Shown piece after piece: positions 22,008 to 29,237 of a stretch of DNA of 64,000 nucleotides (its first letter is position 1; each line of letters starts with the position of its first letter). This DNA comes from Acidovorax sp. NCPPB 4044. GTDB taxonomy: Bacteria; Pseudomonadota; Gammaproteobacteria; Burkholderiales; Burkholderiaceae_C. The position numbers and the translations under genes are program-made. The stretch is taken from positions 4,432,001-4,496,000 of the forward strand of contig NZ_JAMCOS010000001.1 in the NCBI RefSeq assembly GCF_028069655.1, read 5' to 3'. The notes below the pieces were generated by a model. The model saw only the letters and a program-made list of their open reading frames with translations, made no database searches and had not been told where the DNA came from.

Positions 22008-24410
22008 ATGCCGACCCCGACCCGCCGCACGCCCCCGCGCCACCGCCCTCCCTTCGCCGCCCGCGGGGCCGCCCTGGCGGCGGCGCTGTGCATCGCCGCC
22101 GCCGCGCACGCCCAGCCCGTGGCGATCGACCTTCCCGCCCAGCCGCTCGCGCAATCGCTGGCCGCGCTCGCACGGCAGAGCGGTGCGCAGATCGTCTTCG
22201 GCACCGACACCGCCCAGGGCCTGGGCGCGCCCGCCGTGCGCGGCACGCTGGAGGTGCGCGAGGCGCTGGACCGCCTCGTGGCCGGCACCGGCCTCGTGGT
22301 GCGCGCCCAGGACGCGCGCACGTTCACCGTGGAGCGCGCCGCCGCCGCCGGCCCGGGTGCCGCGGTGGGCGGCGGCGGATCGGCCTCGCTGGGCGAGGTG
22401 CGCGTGCAGGCCGCACGCGGCGCGGACACCAGCTACTACGCGCCCTCGTCCGCCAGCGGCACCAGGACCGAGGCCGCGCTGCGCGACGTGCCGCAGACCA
22501 TCGACGTGGTGCCCCAGCAGGTGATCCGCGACCAGGGCGCCACCTCGATCCAGGACACGCTGCGCAACGTGGCCGGCGTGGGCCTGTCCACCGGCGACGG
22601 CCAGCGCGACCAGGTCAGCATCCGCGGCTTCACCAGCATCGGCGACCAGTTCGTCGATGGTTTCCGCGACGACGCGCTCTACTTCCGCGATCTCTCCAAC
22701 ATCGAGCGCGTGGAGGTCGTGAAGGGCCCCGCCGCCGTGCTCTACGGGCGCGGCTCCTCGGGCGGGCTCGTGAACCGCGTCACCAAGAAGCCGGGCGCGG
22801 ATGTCTCCGACGTGGCGCTCAGCGTGGGCAGCTGGGCCGACAAGCGCGCCGAGTTCGACGTGGGCCGCGCGCCCGCGGGCAGCGACTGGTCATGGCGCGT
22901 CACCGGCGCGGCCGAGGATGCCAACAGCTACCGCAGCCAGCAGTTCCTGGAGCGCCAGGCCATCGCGCCTTCGGTGCTATGGAAGCCCGACGGCGCCACC
23001 TCGCTGATGCTGCAGGCCGACTACCTGCACGACAAGCGCGTGACCGATTTCGGCATCCCGGCCTTCCGAGGCCGGCCCGTGGCGGTGGACCCGCGCACCT
23101 ACTACGGCGCGGCCAACGCGCGCGATGCGGACACCTCCGAATCCACCGTGGGCTCGTTCACGGCCACGTTCGAGCACCGCTTCTCCGACACGCTGCGCGT
23201 GCGCAACGCGCTGCGCTACTACCACTACGAGCTGGACCGCCAGAACACCCTGCCCTCCGGCGGCGTGAACGAAGCCGCGGGCACCGTGGCCCTCACGCGC
23301 TCGGGCATCGACCGCAGCGAGCACGGCGTCTTCAACCAGACGGAGCTGGTCCAGAACCTGCGCATCGGCAGCATCGCGCACGAGGTGCTCTACGGCCTGG
23401 AACTGGGCCAGCAGAACAAGGACGCGCTCACCTACTCCGGCGGCACGCTGGCCACCGTGAACCTCTGGAACCCCGTGCTGCCGGTGGCGCCGCTGAACGG
23501 GGGCGGCGCGCTCACGGGCAGCACGCTCAACCGCTACCTGACGCGCGCCGCCTATGTGCAGGACCAGATCACGTTCACGCCCGAATGGAAGCTGCTGGCC
23601 GGCCTGCGCTACGACCGCTTCGGCCAGGAAACCGACAACCGCCTGCCGGGCCAAGCCGATTTCGAGCGCACCGACACCACCTGGAGCCCGCGCCTGGGCC
23701 TGGTGTGGCAGCCGGACGCCGTGCAGTCGTACTACGCCTCGGTGAGCCGCTCCTACCAGCCCTCGGCCGAGATGTTCGCGCTCTCGGCCACCAACGCCGC
23801 CGTCAAGCCCGAGCGCACTACCAACTACGAGGTGGGCACGAAGTGGGAGCTGCTGGGCGGCCGCGCCACGGCCACGGCCTCGCTCTTCCAGCTGGAGCGC
23901 ACCGACATCAAGACCGCCGACCCGGCGCGCCCCACGGTGCTGATCCCCATCGGCACGCAGCGCACGCGCGGGCTGGAGCTGTCGCTCTCGGGCGAGCTGC
24001 GCGCCGGCACGCAGGCCACGTTCAGCTACGCCTACCTGGACACGCGCGTCACCCGCTCCACCGCCACCGACGCGGGCCAGTCCGTGGAAGGCAAGCGCGC
24101 CACCCTCACGCCGCGCAACGCGTTCTCGGCCTGGATCACCCAGCAGCTCGGCGAGGCCTGGAGCGTGGGCGGCGGCGTAAACTACGTGGGCGACCGCTTC
24201 GCCAACCCCGGCAACACCGTCACCCTGCCCTCCTACGTGGTGGTGGACGCCATGGCGCAATACCGCATCGGCCGCGCGACCACGCTGCAGCTCAACCTGC
24301 GCAACCTGTTCGATCGCAGCTACATCGTCTCGGCCCACGGCTCCAACGCCAACCTGAACCTGCCCGGCGCACCGCGCAATGCGACGCTGACGCTGCGGCA
24401 CAGTTTCTGA
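22008..24410 (+). CDS. TonB-dependent siderophore receptor with signalling domain
   Basis: The 800-residue outer membrane protein has a signal peptide ending AHAQ, an STN signalling domain (about 36-110, VAIDLPAQPLAQSLAALARQSG), a TonB-box-like segment LGEVRVQA, the plug (TEAALRDVPQTIDVVPQQVIRDQG, VEVVKGPAAVLYGRGSSGGLVNRVTKKP) and a 22-strand barrel ending in Phe (LTLRHSF). The STN domain and the adjacent FecI/FecR genes make it a transducing receptor of the FpvA/FoxA type for a ferric siderophore, probably hydroxamate or xenosiderophore; the ligand is unknown. Confidence 0.93.
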   Translation: MPTPTRRTPPRHRPPFAARGAALAAALCIAAAAHAQPVAIDLPAQPLAQSLAALARQSGAQIVFGTDTAQGLGAPAVRGTLEVREALDRLVAGTGLVVRAQDARTFTVERAAAAGPGAAVGGGGSASLGEVRVQAARGADTSYYAPSSASGTRTEAALRDVPQTIDVVPQQVIRDQGATSIQDTLRNVAGVGLSTGDGQRDQVSIRGFTSIGDQFVDGFRDDALYFRDLSNIERVEVVKGPAAVLYGRGSSGGLVNRVTKKPGADVSDVALSVGSWADKRAEFDVGRAPAGSDWSWRVTGAAEDANSYRSQQFLERQAIAPSVLWKPDGATSLMLQADYLHDKRVTDFGIPAFRGRPVAVDPRTYYGAANARDADTSESTVGSFTATFEHRFSDTLRVRNALRYYHYELDRQNTLPSGGVNEAAGTVALTRSGIDRSEHGVFNQTELVQNLRIGSIAHEVLYGLELGQQNKDALTYSGGTLATVNLWNPVLPVAPLNGGGALTGSTLNRYLTRAAYVQDQITFTPEWKLLAGLRYDRFGQETDNRLPGQADFERTDTTWSPRLGLVWQPDAVQSYYASVSRSYQPSAEMFALSATNAAVKPERTTNYEVGTKWELLGGRATATASLFQLERTDIKTADPARPTVLIPIGTQRTRGLELSLSGELRAGTQATFSYAYLDTRVTRSTATDAGQSVEGKRATLTPRNAFSAWITQQLGEAWSVGGGVNYVGDRFANPGNTVTLPSYVVVDAMAQYRIGRATTLQLNLRNLFDRSYIVSAHGSNANLNLPGAPRNATLTLRHSF

Positions 24411-24630: not shown

Positions 24631-25293
24631 ATGTCGCTTGCGTACTGGTTCCGGGAGGGACCTGCGGAGCCCATCGAAAATGGGCGGACTCAATATGGGC
24701 CGGGGAAGGGGTTGCCCAAGCTGGTATTCGAGGGGTTGGACGACGCCAAGAAACTCGTCCAGAAGATCGCCACCATCGATCCGGTGCGCAAGAAGATCAT
24801 CCTCATCCAGCCTAGAGACAAAGCCCTGTACCTCTCCGGTCTGCGGGAGCGGGGAGTCCCGGGTTATTTGTACCTGTTCGCGCATGCGAATGCTCAGCGC
24901 CTTCAAGGAATGACGAATATCGGAGAAATCGTCAGAGTCATCCGCCTCAGCGGCATCTGGCAGAGGCAGCCCGTCCTGATCGATGCATGCAATGCCGGCG
25001 CCTCGCCCGATGGGGTCGCCAGCGCCCTGGCCCAGGCTCTGCTCACCCACGTTACCGCACCCACCACGCTCACCTGGAACCATCCCCTGGGCGGCTCCGC
25101 CATCGGCCAGGGCACCTTCGAGAAACTGCCCGGTATGCTGGAGCGGCTGCCCATCCCCGACTTCCTGCGCCCGGGGCAATGGCGCACCTGGGGGCCGAAT
25201 GGCCAACCCATCGCTACCACGCGCGCCTCGCCGCGCGATGGCGGGGAACTCGTCAAGGGCCCATGGGCCCGCGAACTGCTGAGGAAACGATGA
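24631..25293 (+). CDS. Caspase/CHAT-like putative cysteine peptidase, first gene of a four-gene cluster
   Basis: The 220-residue protein is preceded by AGGAAGAG. No signal peptide is seen. Two hydrophobic strands end in the candidate clan CD dyad: YLYLFAHANA (His85) and PVLIDACNAGAS (Cys120), the latter like the VVLSAC-x-SG block of CHAT domains. After Cys120 follow GVASALAQALL and a TTLTWNHPLGGSAIG strand, as in caspase-fold peptidases. The Gly after the His usual in caspases is replaced, so activity is not certain. Its stop overlaps the next start (ATGA), coupling it to three tandem membrane-anchored paralogues. A toxin with three protective partners, or a stress-activated peptidase, are both possible. 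Confidence 0.55.
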   Translation: MSLAYWFREGPAEPIENGRTQYGPGKGLPKLVFEGLDDAKKLVQKIATIDPVRKKIILIQPRDKALYLSGLRERGVPGYLYLFAHANAQRLQGMTNIGEIVRVIRLSGIWQRQPVLIDACNAGASPDGVASALAQALLTHVTAPTTLTWNHPLGGSAIGQGTFEKLPGMLERLPIPDFLRPGQWRTWGPNGQPIATTRASPRDGGELVKGPWARELLRKR

Positions 25294-25994
25294 TGCCGCG
25301 ACGGTGGAAACGCATCGGCTGCGGCTTTCAACTGCTTCTGATTCTCGCGCTTCTGATCGGCGCCTACACCGCATGGTGGTGGATCGATAGCGCGCGCTGC
25401 GACAAGCAGGACGAGTACTCGTACCACGGCATCTGCCTCATGCGAATACAAGAGCGTGCCGAGCGAGGCGACAACGCGGCACAGTGGGCGTATGGCAGCT
25501 ACCTCGAAACGGAACGCCGGGAGCCAGAAGCGCGAGTGTGGCAATTGCGGGCGATGCATGGCGCCCGCGATGGGCTGGATCTACGCGGCGAGATGCTCGG
25601 CTACTGCGACCGCATCCCCGGCTTCGAGGCGCGCACTATCGAATCCATCATGCTGCGTGTTGTGGAGAACAGCCCCGATGCGCATCTGCGCCTGCTGCAA
25701 CTCTATACCTACCCTGGTGGTTGCAGCGCCTTCGATCTGGACAAGGCCAGTGCGCAGATTCCCCTACTGACGCAGTGCGCCCATCTGACGCTGAGCGACT
25801 ATCTGGAACACGCCCAAACCAGGCGTTACCGCATACCACGCGCCACCCGAGAAGCCATCCGCACCAACATAAAGCTTTGCGAGCAGGAAGTGGCGCACCC
25901 GCCCCCATTGGGCACAACTGTTCGCGAATTCATGCCGGTACGACAACAAGACCTGGATGCCCTGTCGCATGCTTTCGCCGCACTGGAGCCATGA
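25290..25994 (+). CDS. Membrane-anchored Sel1-like protein, paralogue A
   Basis: The 234-residue protein starts within the stop of the caspase-like gene (ATGA). A basic N-terminus (MMPRRWKRIGCG) and one helix (about 12-32) leading to YTAWWWIDSA predict an N-in anchor with the rest in the periplasm. The following GDNAAQWAYGSYLETERRE resembles Sel1/TPR-type helical repeats. Further blocks are SPDAHLRLLQLY, FDLDKASAQIPLLTQCAH and a C-terminal charged helix. Six or seven Cys are conserved with the two paralogues. The function is unknown. It carries GGCSAF where B and C have GCGAF or RCGAF. Confidence 0.7.
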   Translation: MMPRRWKRIGCGFQLLLILALLIGAYTAWWWIDSARCDKQDEYSYHGICLMRIQERAERGDNAAQWAYGSYLETERREPEARVWQLRAMHGARDGLDLRGEMLGYCDRIPGFEARTIESIMLRVVENSPDAHLRLLQLYTYPGGCSAFDLDKASAQIPLLTQCAHLTLSDYLEHAQTRRYRIPRATREAIRTNIKLCEQEVAHPPPLGTTVREFMPVRQQDLDALSHAFAALEP

Positions 25995-26001
25995 GGCCCC
26001 C

Positions 26002-26721
26002 ATGCCGAAGACCCTCGCGCCCCTGGCATGGTGGAAACGCATCGGCTGCGGCCTTCAACTGCTTCTGATCCTCTTGCTCCTGATCACCACCTACACCGCA
26101 TGGTGGTGGATCGACAGTGCCCGTACCTGCGAAACGCAGGACCAGTACACCCTGCACGGAATCTGTCTCATGCGGATACACGATCGAGCCAACAAGGGGG
26201 ACAACGCCGCGCAGTGGGCCTACGGTAACTACCTCGAAACCGAGGGCCGACAGCAGGAAGCGAATGTCTGGTACCTCCGCGCCATGCATGGCGCTCGTGA
26301 CGGATTGGATCTGCGCGACAACATGAAAGCCTACTGTGACCGTATCCCCGGCTTCGATGCGCGCTCTGTCGAGGCCACCATGCTGCGCGTGGTGCCCAAT
26401 AGCCCCGATGCGCATCTGCGTCTTCTGCAGCTCTATATCTACCCTGGCTGTGGCGCTTTCGATCTCGACAAGGCGAGCGCGCAAATTCCTCTGCTGACTC
26501 AGTGCGCACACATTGCGCTCACCAACTATTTACACCGGGCCGAAGGCACACGGCACCGCATTTCAACCGTAACGAGGGCTGCCATCCGCTCGAACATGAA
26601 TCTTTGCGAGCAGGAATTGATGGTCCCCCCTCCACTTGGTGACACGGTCCGGGAGGCCATCCCAGTTCGCAAAGAGCATCTGGACGAACTGTCGCACCGT
26701 CTCGCTGCGCTGGAGCCATGA
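26002..26721 (+). CDS. Membrane-anchored Sel1-like protein, paralogue B
   Basis: The 239-residue copy begins 7 bases after the stop of paralogue A. It keeps the WWKRIGCG anchor start, the YTAWWWIDSAR junction, GDNAAQWAYGNYLETE, CDRIPGFDAR and FDLDKASAQIPLLTQCAH. Differences gather in the middle (KAYCDRIPGFDARSVEATML) and the C-terminal quarter (NYLHRAEGTRHRISTV), as expected if each copy recognises a different partner. Its last base pairs overlap the start of paralogue C (ATGA). Confidence 0.7.
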   Translation: MPKTLAPLAWWKRIGCGLQLLLILLLLITTYTAWWWIDSARTCETQDQYTLHGICLMRIHDRANKGDNAAQWAYGNYLETEGRQQEANVWYLRAMHGARDGLDLRDNMKAYCDRIPGFDARSVEATMLRVVPNSPDAHLRLLQLYIYPGCGAFDLDKASAQIPLLTQCAHIALTNYLHRAEGTRHRISTVTRAAIRSNMNLCEQELMVPPPLGDTVREAIPVRKEHLDELSHRLAALEP

Positions 26722-27434
26722 AGCCCCCCCTGGCATGTTGGAAACGCATGGGCTGCGGCTTGCAGTTGCTCCTGATCGTCTCGCTCCTGATAGCCGCCTA
26801 CACCGCATGGTGGTGGATCGACAGTGCTCGCACCTGCGAGACGCAGGATGAATACAACCTTCGCGGCATTTGCCTCATGCGCATCCAAGAGCGTGCCGAG
26901 CAGGGCGACAACGCCGCACAGTGGGCGTATGGCAGTTACCTCGAAACGGAGCGCCGGGAGACGGAAGCACGCGTCTGGCAACTGCGGGCCATGCACGGAG
27001 CCCAGACAGGTCTGGCGCTGCGCAATGAGATGAAAATCTTCTGCGACCGTTTTCCAGGCTTCGAGGCGCACAACGTCGAGGCGATCATGTTGCGCGTGGC
27101 TGCGAAAAGCCCTGATGCGCACCTACGGCTGCTGCAACTCTATGTCTACCCCCGCTGCGGCGCCTTCGACCTCGACAAGGCCAGCGCGCAGATTCCCCTG
27201 CTGACCCAGTGTGCGCACTTCACGCTTGCCGACTATTTCGAACGTGTCAAAAGCGCGAATTACCGCGTCTCATCTGCCACACGTGCGGCCATCCGGTCCA
27301 ACATACAGCGTTGCGAGCAGGAGCTTGCCAACCCGACTCCTCCGGGCACTACGGTCCGCGAGTTCATGCCGGTCTGGCAGAAGGATCTGGACGACCTGTC
27401 GCGCAGCCTCGCCGCGCTGGATCCGGCCCCCTGA
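26718..27434 (+). CDS. Membrane-anchored Sel1-like protein, paralogue C
   Basis: The 238-residue copy overlaps paralogue B by four bases. The anchor (about 10-32), GDNAAQWAYGSYLETERRE, SPDAHLRLLQLYVYP and FDLDKASAQIPLLTQCAH are as in the others; the C-terminal quarter (DYFERVKSANYRVSSAT, VREFMPVWQKDLDDLSRSL) is closer to A than to B. The four genes are so tightly packed that one transcript is nearly certain. Nothing in the sequence tells the biochemical role. Confidence 0.7.
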   Translation: MKPPLACWKRMGCGLQLLLIVSLLIAAYTAWWWIDSARTCETQDEYNLRGICLMRIQERAEQGDNAAQWAYGSYLETERRETEARVWQLRAMHGAQTGLALRNEMKIFCDRFPGFEAHNVEAIMLRVAAKSPDAHLRLLQLYVYPRCGAFDLDKASAQIPLLTQCAHFTLADYFERVKSANYRVSSATRAAIRSNIQRCEQELANPTPPGTTVREFMPVWQKDLDDLSRSLAALDPAP

Positions 27435-27524: not shown

Positions 27525-28196
27525 TCACCGCCCTGCCTGCTCCAGCCACGCCTCCACCTCCTGGGCGGCCTGCGCGGCGGCCTCGGACATGGCGTGCGTG
27601 CCGCCGCGGGCGTCGGCCGTGGGGGCGGGCTTCTGGACGATGAAGACGCGCTGGGCGACGAGCTTCTCGCCGGCCTGGGTGGAGTCGGCGAGCGAGGCGC
27701 GCAGCCGCAGCACGCCGGTGCTGGCCGTGGTGGACTGGAAGACCTGGCTGAATTCCTCGATCTCCACGCGCAGCACGGCGGGCGGCTTGCCGCCCTCGAC
27801 GAGCTGCATGGCGCCCTCGTCGCCCATGAGCACCGGGCGGCGCTGGCCCAGCTGGTCGCGCAACGCCTGCTGCACGAGCTGCGCGGGCGGCTGGCTCCAG
27901 CGGGCCTGGCCGTAGGGGCGCAGGCGGCGCGGGTCGTCGTAGGCCAGGCGGTAGAGCACGGAGGTGCTGCCTTCCACCGGGCCGGTGACGGCCACCTCGG
28001 GCAGCGCGATGGGCGGCAGGGGCGCGCGGCGGTCGGTGGGCGCGGTGGCCAGCAGGCCCGGGCCGAAGTCGTACACGTCGGCGCGCACAGGCGGCGCGGG
28101 CAGGGCCGAGCAACCGGCCAGGAGCGCGGCCGCGGCCACGGTGCCCCAGAGGCCTGATGCCGCCGTATTCACTGCATTGTTTGCTATGTTTTTCAT
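27525..28196 (-). CDS. ABC-type transport auxiliary lipoprotein (PqiC/YmbA-like)
   Basis: The 223-residue lipoprotein has the lipobox LLAGC (Cys29) and a domain of the ABC-type transport auxiliary lipoprotein family (VYDFGPGLLATAPT, SVLYRLAYDDPRRLRPYGQARWSQPPAQLVQQALRDQL, VLRVEIEEFSQVFQ). It is the outer membrane partner of the MCE transporter encoded upstream. The first 15 residues (MKNIANNAVNTAASG) are encoded by a dispersed repeat. A good ribosome site is not visible, so the exact start is uncertain. Confidence 0.8.
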   Translation of the reverse strand: MKNIANNAVNTAASGLWGTVAAAALLAGCSALPAPPVRADVYDFGPGLLATAPTDRRAPLPPIALPEVAVTGPVEGSTSVLYRLAYDDPRRLRPYGQARWSQPPAQLVQQALRDQLGQRRPVLMGDEGAMQLVEGGKPPAVLRVEIEEFSQVFQSTTASTGVLRLRASLADSTQAGEKLVAQRVFIVQKPAPTADARGGTHAMSEAAAQAAQEVEAWLEQAGR

Positions 28197-28256: not shown

Positions 28257-29237
28257 TCACCGGGTCGCGGCGGCGGGTGCCTCGAAGCCGGGCTCGCCCG
28301 GGCCGCCGGCCGCGCGGCCGGGTCCGTAGATGAGCGATTGCGGGTTGTCGCTGAGGTTGCTGGCCGCGCGGCCCAGGCGGCGCACGGCGCGCGAGGTTTC
28401 GTCGGCGGCATGGTTCACGCGCGGCAGCGTCACGCGGCCGAAGCGGTCGGCCGCGAGCGACAGCGACTGCGAGCTTTCGGCGATCTGGTCGAGCGGCCCG
28501 CCCTCGGCGCTCAGCTTGCGCACGGCGGTGGTCACTTCGCTGGCCGCATTGCCGGCGTTCGTGCCCGCCTGCCGCAGGGCCTGCAGGGTTTCGCGCGCAT
28601 CGCTGGCCAGCACCGGCACGGTGGCCAGGGCCGGGTCCAGCCGCTGCGCCACGGTGTTGTCGAGCCGCTTCATGAGCGCGTTGGCACTGCCCGCAGCCTG
28701 CCCGAGGTTGTCCAGCGCGAGGGTGAAGCGCTTCTGGTTCTCGTCGCCCAGCAGATCGTTGATGCGGTCGGTGGCCTGCTGCACCTGCGCGAGGATGGCC
28801 GGCCCCTGTTCGGCGAGCTGGCTGAAGGGCGAGCTCTTGAGCGGCAGACGCGGCAGGCCGCTCGATCCGCGCGGCAGCGCGGGCTGCGGCGAGGAGCCGT
28901 CGTCCAGCAGCACGTGCGCGAGGCCGGTGACGCCCTGGTAGCCCAGCACGGCGAAGGTGGCGGGCGTGACGGGCGCCTGGTCGTTCACGGCGATGCGGAT
29001 CAGCACGTTGCCGGCCACGTCGGGGTCGAAGCCGATGCGCGTCACCTTGCCCACGGCCACGCCCTTGTAGCGCACGGCCGCCTGCGGCTGCAGCCCGCCC
29101 ACGCTCTCGCGCGTGGAGAGCTCGTAGACCTGGTAGCTCGCCCGGTCGCGCGTGAGCCACAGGCCCAGGGCGGCGAGCAGGGCCGCCACCACCACTACGA
29201 AGATGCCCGCGGCAAGGGCGTGGGACTTGTTTTCCAT
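28257..29237 (-). CDS. MlaD-family (MCE) substrate-binding protein
   Basis: The 326-residue protein has one N-terminal helix (about 8-28) and an MCE domain (about 38-120: YELSTRESVGGLQPQAAVRYKGVAVGKVTRIGFDP, VTGLAHVLLDD). A long helical region (about 150-290) follows, as in MCE proteins that form a periplasmic tunnel. It hands lipids between the inner membrane complex and the outer membrane lipoprotein. Its start overlaps the stop of the ATPase gene. Confidence 0.9.
   Translation of the reverse strand: MENKSHALAAGIFVVVVAALLAALGLWLTRDRASYQVYELSTRESVGGLQPQAAVRYKGVAVGKVTRIGFDPDVAGNVLIRIAVNDQAPVTPATFAVLGYQGVTGLAHVLLDDGSSPQPALPRGSSGLPRLPLKSSPFSQLAEQGPAILAQVQQATDRINDLLGDENQKRFTLALDNLGQAAGSANALMKRLDNTVAQRLDPALATVPVLASDARETLQALRQAGTNAGNAASEVTTAVRKLSAEGGPLDQIAESSQSLSLAADRFGRVTLPRVNHAADETSRAVRRLGRAASNLSDNPQSLIYGPGRAAGGPGEPGFEAPAAATR

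Follow-up and report, generated by a model that had tools for sequence, protein, structure and literature searches.

Caspase-like domains of the Tox-Caspase type are counted among the domains of polymorphic toxins, where they are taken as the toxin when placed C-terminally, and their export routes include the type VI secretion system (T6SS) (PMC3482391, Zhang et al. 2012). Here we analyse a four-gene locus in a stretch of 64,000 nucleotides from Acidovorax sp. NCPPB 4044 (contig NZ_JAMCOS010000001.1, positions 4,432,001 to 4,496,000; the whole stretch is called the window), in which a gene for a predicted caspase-like protein, CAS, is followed by three tandem paralogous genes, PAR A, PAR B and PAR C. 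We consider that the four genes probably form an antibacterial (interbacterial) effector with its immunity array, an activity predicted from sequence. The evidence comes from homologues at the tips of Rhs proteins that have small genes of their own, from the linkage of CAS to PAR throughout the genus, from the predicted periplasmic location of PAR, from the exchange of PAR alleles between strains and from co-occurrence with the T6SS, and it supports the proposal of a toxin with multiplied immunity partners made in a first-pass annotation of this DNA. Like Tox-Caspase, CAS has the conserved His and Cys of the caspase-like fold class, and its remote relatives are found at Rhs C-termini; unlike the domain described there, CAS is a stand-alone protein with a family-specific immunity array, and it goes unrecognised by Pfam and NCBIfam.

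Three further systems are close in one respect or another, and we compare them by their published descriptions. In Pseudomonas aeruginosa, Tce1 (PA0256, DUF4347) and Tce2 (PA2372) are putative cysteine proteases carried as Hcp3 cargo. They are reported to have a His/Cys dyad and a fold like that of the TcdB protease; an immunity gene was not evident for them, and a role against eukaryotes is proposed (PMC8262886, PMC13323088). CAS is likewise a predicted cargo-type protein with a candidate His/Cys dyad, and the DUF4347 of PA0256 is the family that CAS together with its relatives resembles by profile; it is set apart, on a comparison of descriptions, by its 1-6 candidate immunity genes. PldB (Tle5b), a T6SS effector, has three neighbouring Sel1-repeat immunity proteins, PA5086-PA5088 (PMC9022076), and so shares with our locus an effector gene beside tandem immunity paralogues, but it is a phospholipase D, and Sel1 repeats in PAR stay below every threshold tried. 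EsaG and TipC of the type VII secretion system (T7SS) occur as runs of immunity paralogues that differ from one another and whose copies recombine (PMC9484751); PAR genes form similar runs, likened here by description, whereas those arrays belong to a Gram-positive T7SS and to other toxins. The first-pass annotation did not recognise the layout as a described one. It is not wholly new, as tandem immunity paralogues (the PldB immunity proteins, EsaG) and T6SS effectors of clan CD type (Tce1/Tce2) have been published separately, and among the best-ranked literature matches there was no publication describing the CAS-PAR family.

CAS, its candidate dyad and its relatives

The genes of the locus, all on the forward strand, are the following.

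24631-25293, +, CAS, predicted effector with a cysteine peptidase core of caspase-like (DUF4347-like) type, 220 residues
24883-24885, +, codon of CAS His85
24988-24990, +, codon of CAS Cys120
25290-25994, +, PAR A, first copy, predicted inner-membrane-anchored periplasmic immunity protein
26002-26721, +, PAR B, second predicted immunity paralogue, shares 92% identity with copy 2 of locus L054 (P. konjaci-like)
26718-27434, +, PAR C, third predicted immunity paralogue, shares 93% identity with copy 1 of locus L053 (P. anthurii-like)

The junctions between CAS and PAR A and between PAR B and PAR C are ATGA overlaps, PAR A and PAR B are 7 bp apart, and the FDLDKASAQIPLLTQCAH block is identical across the three PAR proteins; all this, including the gene coordinates, agrees with the first-pass annotation. 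Within the block the DNA of the three genes shows silent differences. PAR A has an additional in-frame ATG at 25293.

His85 and Cys120, put forward earlier as a candidate dyad, are conserved without exception in the 41 aligned CAS homologues. The alignment holds 41 of 48 homologues, with P0011 (which has an N-terminal extension) and six shorter or altered proteins omitted, among them P0042, in which an internal deletion removes the Cys region; one homologue search returned 57 proteins, 10 of them new (short or remote). With regard to fold, none of the 41 CAS members scores above the Pfam cut-off for DUF4347 (PF14252), a family which we take to belong to clan CD, even allowing E up to 1, and the family has no match anywhere in the window's genome. 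In profile-profile comparison with hhalign, CAS joined with seven remote relatives is connected to DUF4347 at P 68% and E 4.8e-5 (reversed control 0.4%), and the seven relatives alone at P 92% and E 7.9e-7 (reversed control 0.1%). Besides three Rhs tips, the seven comprise L074, P0093, a part of P0100 and, as a closer relative, L069. The His and Cys of CAS align with the HG and C motifs of DUF4347, an alignment that is favoured by the choice of the family sets, for which 24 of 30 DUF4347 and 25 of 30 CHAT stretches were picked as stop-free and possessing HG and C motifs. Support for a clan CD fold in CAS thus comes from a profile similarity to DUF4347 that is moderate and depends on the remote relatives.

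CHAT (PF12770) was also considered and rejected as a family for CAS: 0 of 41 members score above the Pfam cut-off, again allowing E up to 1, and the hhalign link is weak, its probability falling as relatives are added, from 43% for CAS alone to 17% with relatives and 1.3% for relatives alone. Since DUF4347 and CHAT themselves, compared in this way, reach a P of just 1.6%, the method has little sensitivity at such distances. The original label of a caspase/CHAT-like protein can therefore be kept for the broad clan CD-like H...C core but not for CHAT membership, the best profile link being that to DUF4347. The window's genome has two CHAT-type matches, at C1:5253776-5254591 and 1543944-1544237, away from the CAS loci.

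The relation to toxins is most direct in three remote homologues (L072, L073 and L075), in which the CAS-matching part comes immediately after an NCBIfam Rhs_assc_core domain scoring above its cut-off in all three (E 1.8e-21, 8.3e-19 and 1.6e-17, in the order listed). The tips of L072 and L075 align with the CAS profile in hhalign at E 3.6e-11 and E 8.6e-8, and L073 was matched in the CAS-profile search at E 1e-6. CAS-like parts situated right after Rhs cores indicate a domain common to polymorphic toxins, of which the close CAS family is itself a stand-alone form, not fused to a carrier. Downstream of each Rhs-tip relative lies a small open reading frame (ORF), whose products, read by eye, look like a lipoprotein, a secreted protein and a membrane-anchored protein; the partner of the L075 tip is weakly like the PAR N-terminus (P 15%, E 0.002). 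In L073 the CAS-like tip sits behind a 1453-residue RHS-repeat protein and another displaced tip, and the region as a whole (L073 8516-14763) consists of an RHS-repeat gene and then displaced Rhs tips, one of them CAS-like and each accompanied by a small ORF whose product looks exported.

PAR proteins, allele exchange and chromosomal sites

Each of the window's PAR proteins has a single N-terminal hydrophobic segment preceded by K/R residues, and six cysteines are invariant in 38 of 38 near-full PAR copies of the genus. Anchor and cysteines together point to a periplasmic site of action, and they indicate that PAR is held in the inner membrane by its anchor and has a periplasmic domain that is oxidised. 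Neither signal peptide nor membrane segment was seen in CAS (hydrophobicity maximum, KD19, 1.09), so that periplasmic PAR proteins would meet only CAS arriving from outside the cell, as is expected of T6SS effectors whose immunity proteins are periplasmic. Pfam, NCBIfam, PADLOC and PHROGs assign no family to PAR. The earlier description of its helices as Sel1-like has a slender footing, in that TPR matches fall below the Pfam cut-off, a PDB 'Sel1 repeat protein' appears just at E 3.1, and a single homologue, P0064, carries the source name 'Sel1 repeat-containing protein'.

For all 28 PAR genes from multi-copy arrays the nearest relative is found in another strain's array and never in the own array (0/28), and for 19 of the 28 it stands at a different ordinal position. 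In a strain with six copies (L060), some copies match the first PAR genes of three other strains at 92-93% identity. The array members are thus better understood as exchanged alleles than as a triplicated sensor. Broken or truncated PAR genes of L052, L058, L065, L067, L068, G631, G765 C9, G769 and G773 C7 were dropped from these counts. The first PAR is likely the cognate partner of its CAS; within site 1, one of the chromosomal sites of the genus, the distance between CAS proteins correlates with that between first PAR proteins (rho 0.47, permutation 0.005).

CAS homologues are rare. A class-wide draw found it in 1 of 369 genomes, namely the window's own, and a draw from the family in 12 of 399 at E up to 1e-3; half of these 12 match along most of the profile, and the other six are remote. 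Within the genus a near-full CAS is present in 11 of 17 genomes, and in 20 of 20 near-full loci PAR lies directly downstream, so that the gene-order search suggested by the first-pass annotation returned a recurrent CAS-PAR order; a CAS fragment in G765 C9 is excluded from the 20. The arrays hold one to six copies, six in one strain; the three paralogues originally described are accordingly right for the window but not a fixed number. In Acidovorax Leaf78, CAS is followed by one PAR of about 40% identity.

The 20 loci of the genus occupy three fixed chromosomal sites, with 11, 5 and 4 loci. In the window, CAS and PAR A, B and C are packed closely together, with a FecA-type receptor gene on one side and a lipoprotein/MlaD pair on the other. 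These flanking genes, which lie outside the system, are listed below.

22008-24410, +, TonB-dependent receptor (FecA type), insertion-site marker, assigned by Pfam and empty sites
27525-28196, -, ABC-transport auxiliary lipoprotein, assigned by Pfam and empty sites
28257-29237, MlaD-type gene after the ABC-transport lipoprotein, assigned by Pfam

Site 1 is empty in G556, G772 and G775, where the receptor and lipoprotein genes are direct neighbours, and no receptor gene was found in the 10 kb examined for site 1 in G456 and G631. Remains of former loci also occur: PAR remains at L096 8679-9150 (G631), and CAS and PAR remains at L078 5230-8066 (G765 C9). The window's genome has a second CAS locus (G000 C1:569748-571840; L008 7749-9839) with two PAR genes and a CAS that is 83% identical, flanked by a GGDEF-type gene and a xanthine dehydrogenase-like gene (both named by reading). 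Two other ORFs were observed. In a VipB-positive, CAS-free genome site 1 holds a 551-residue ORF without a Pfam family (L098 2441-4093, minus strand), and in L062 (6460-8088) a 542-residue, lipoprotein-like and PHP-like ORF with a GDLHTHT motif (by reading) lies between the receptor gene and CAS; this second ORF has no Pfam match, and a close copy of it adjoins the receptor gene in L098.

T6SS co-occurrence and the weighing of explanations

The T6SS marker VipB is present in 13 of the 17 genomes of the genus, including all 11 with a near-full CAS (Fisher p = 0.006, kinship ignored). When wrecks are counted as presence, traces of CAS or PAR are found in exactly the 13 VipB-positive genomes (for PAR, Fisher p = 0.0004, again ignoring kinship, and the four VipB-negative genomes may be one lineage). 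The empty-site genomes G556, G772 and G775 are three of the four that lack VipB, and G456 is the fourth. Outside the genus the link is looser, with VipB in 6 of 10 genomes tested, Leaf78 being positive.

On the explanation we prefer, CAS would be a small cargo toxin with a Cys/His peptidase core of clan CD type, carried most likely by the T6SS into the periplasm of a neighbouring cell; lacking a PAAR, VgrG or Rhs part, it would probably travel as cargo of the Hcp tube. There its Cys/His dyad would cleave an envelope protein of the target cell. A PAR protein in the inner membrane would block CAS coming from sister cells by means of its disulfide-bonded periplasmic domain, and the extra PAR copies, as alleles shared with other strains, would guard against the CAS variants of those strains. 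We infer the protease activity of CAS, its secretion route, its periplasmic target, its neutralisation by PAR and the cognate pairing of the two.

A number of observations weigh against this explanation, and they are set out here together with the alternatives on which they bear. The first concerns relatives without partners. In the genus g311, CAS-like genes stand without PAR at three of three loci (L069 8505-9092, L070 8827-9393 and L071 7970-8560), upstream of a trmB-like gene (named by reading). All three lack the N-terminal part, and third codon positions hold 52-59% of their mutual changes, so that they look selected; VipB is absent from two of the three genomes. Homologues without paralogues, which the first-pass annotation would have held against its proposal, therefore do occur in g311, while none was found in the window's genus. 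The g311 genes may perhaps have been domesticated, and their being kept single and partner-free with such a third-position excess also fits a cellular role, in which CAS would be a housekeeping cytoplasmic protease under membrane-anchored sensors, as part of an envelope-stress or regulatory module. For the window's locus we regard such a module as improbable: CAS lacks any segment that could take it to the side of the membrane where PAR lies, alleles are swapped between strains, presence is patchy with empty sites, and there are homologues at Rhs tips. The 'sensor' partners and the 'envelope-stress peptidase module' of the first-pass annotation are hence unsupported.

Pairing within the arrays is a second point. 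Later PAR copies have a first copy as nearest relative in 10 of 18 cases, and first copies are 20 of the 38 in the pool, which is no enrichment. At site 1 the distance between CAS proteins correlates about equally with that of the closest PAR pair (rho 0.46), so the first PAR is not singled out, and in ten multi-copy loci the correlation of CAS is 0.73 with the second PAR and 0.72 with the first.

Further counter-evidence touches activity and route. CAS itself has no significant match in Pfam, NCBIfam, PADLOC, PHROGs or PDB sequences (in the last, matches were at chance level), and in hhalign the CAS family, compared by itself with DUF4347, scores P 0.9%, hardly more than the 0.6% of its reversed control. 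VipB is absent from two of the three genomes with Rhs-tip relatives (G371 and G605). Neither vgrG nor hcp nor PAAR genes were seen by eye in the window from 20 to 32 kb among ORFs of at least 80 residues, nor at the second CAS locus among ORFs of at least 130 residues, where a short PAAR gene could be missed; the link to VgrG or PAAR genes that the first-pass annotation had thought worth seeking did not appear in the ORF lists of either locus. Many Hcp cargo effectors sit away from vgrG, hcp and PAAR genes. The same data make room for an effector-immunity pair in which CAS is not a protease, acting by binding or by another reaction (e.g., on peptidoglycan or lipids), or in which the route is not a T6SS, given that the DUF4347 link is moderate and dependent on remote relatives and that G371 and G605 are VipB-negative. 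We hold this variant to be unlikely, though it deserves to be taken seriously: the invariant His and Cys, aligned with the HG and C motifs, and the complete overlap of CAS or PAR traces with VipB in the genus speak against it.

Two other functions can be considered for the locus. Clan CD peptidases are known in defence, and the four genes might act against phages or in abortive infection, with a caspase-like executioner controlled by sensors in the membrane. This seems very improbable to us, since two CAS and two PAR proteins gave no PADLOC match, one CAS and one PAR gave no PHROG match below E 0.1, and both the Rhs-tip homology and the T6SS co-occurrence point elsewhere. The genus is plant-associated, and CAS might also be an effector against eukaryotes (plant or protist), in which case PAR would have another role. 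Such a function is read for Tce2 and possibly for Tce1, and Tce2 is reported to impair yeast growth (PMC13323088); PA0256 is described as toxic in the cytoplasm of E. coli in one paper (PMC8262886) and as not markedly toxic to E. coli in the other (PMC13323088), findings that we count among the points against the preferred explanation. A eukaryotic target appears scarcely probable, because a dedicated, polymorphic array of periplasmic partners would be needless there and yet is present in 20 of 20 loci of the genus.

Consequences of a proposed antibacterial role of CAS

We thus return to CAS as an interbacterial effector and PAR as its immunity. It is quite possible, though we advance it tentatively, that CAS is the first clan CD (DUF4347/caspase-like) effector of a T6SS that is antibacterial and acts in the periplasm, and that PAR is a new immunity family whose members, anchored in the membrane and disulfide-bonded, form a library open to exchange, in which copies match the first (presumed cognate) copies of other strains and so would predict which rivals are survived. 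If this is true, the fold of Tce1 and Tce2 would also serve as an antibacterial weapon, and PAR would represent a natural inhibitor family for a protease of clan CD type. The content of an array would then predict who survives whom; for instance, the window's PAR C would be expected to give protection from the L053 CAS.

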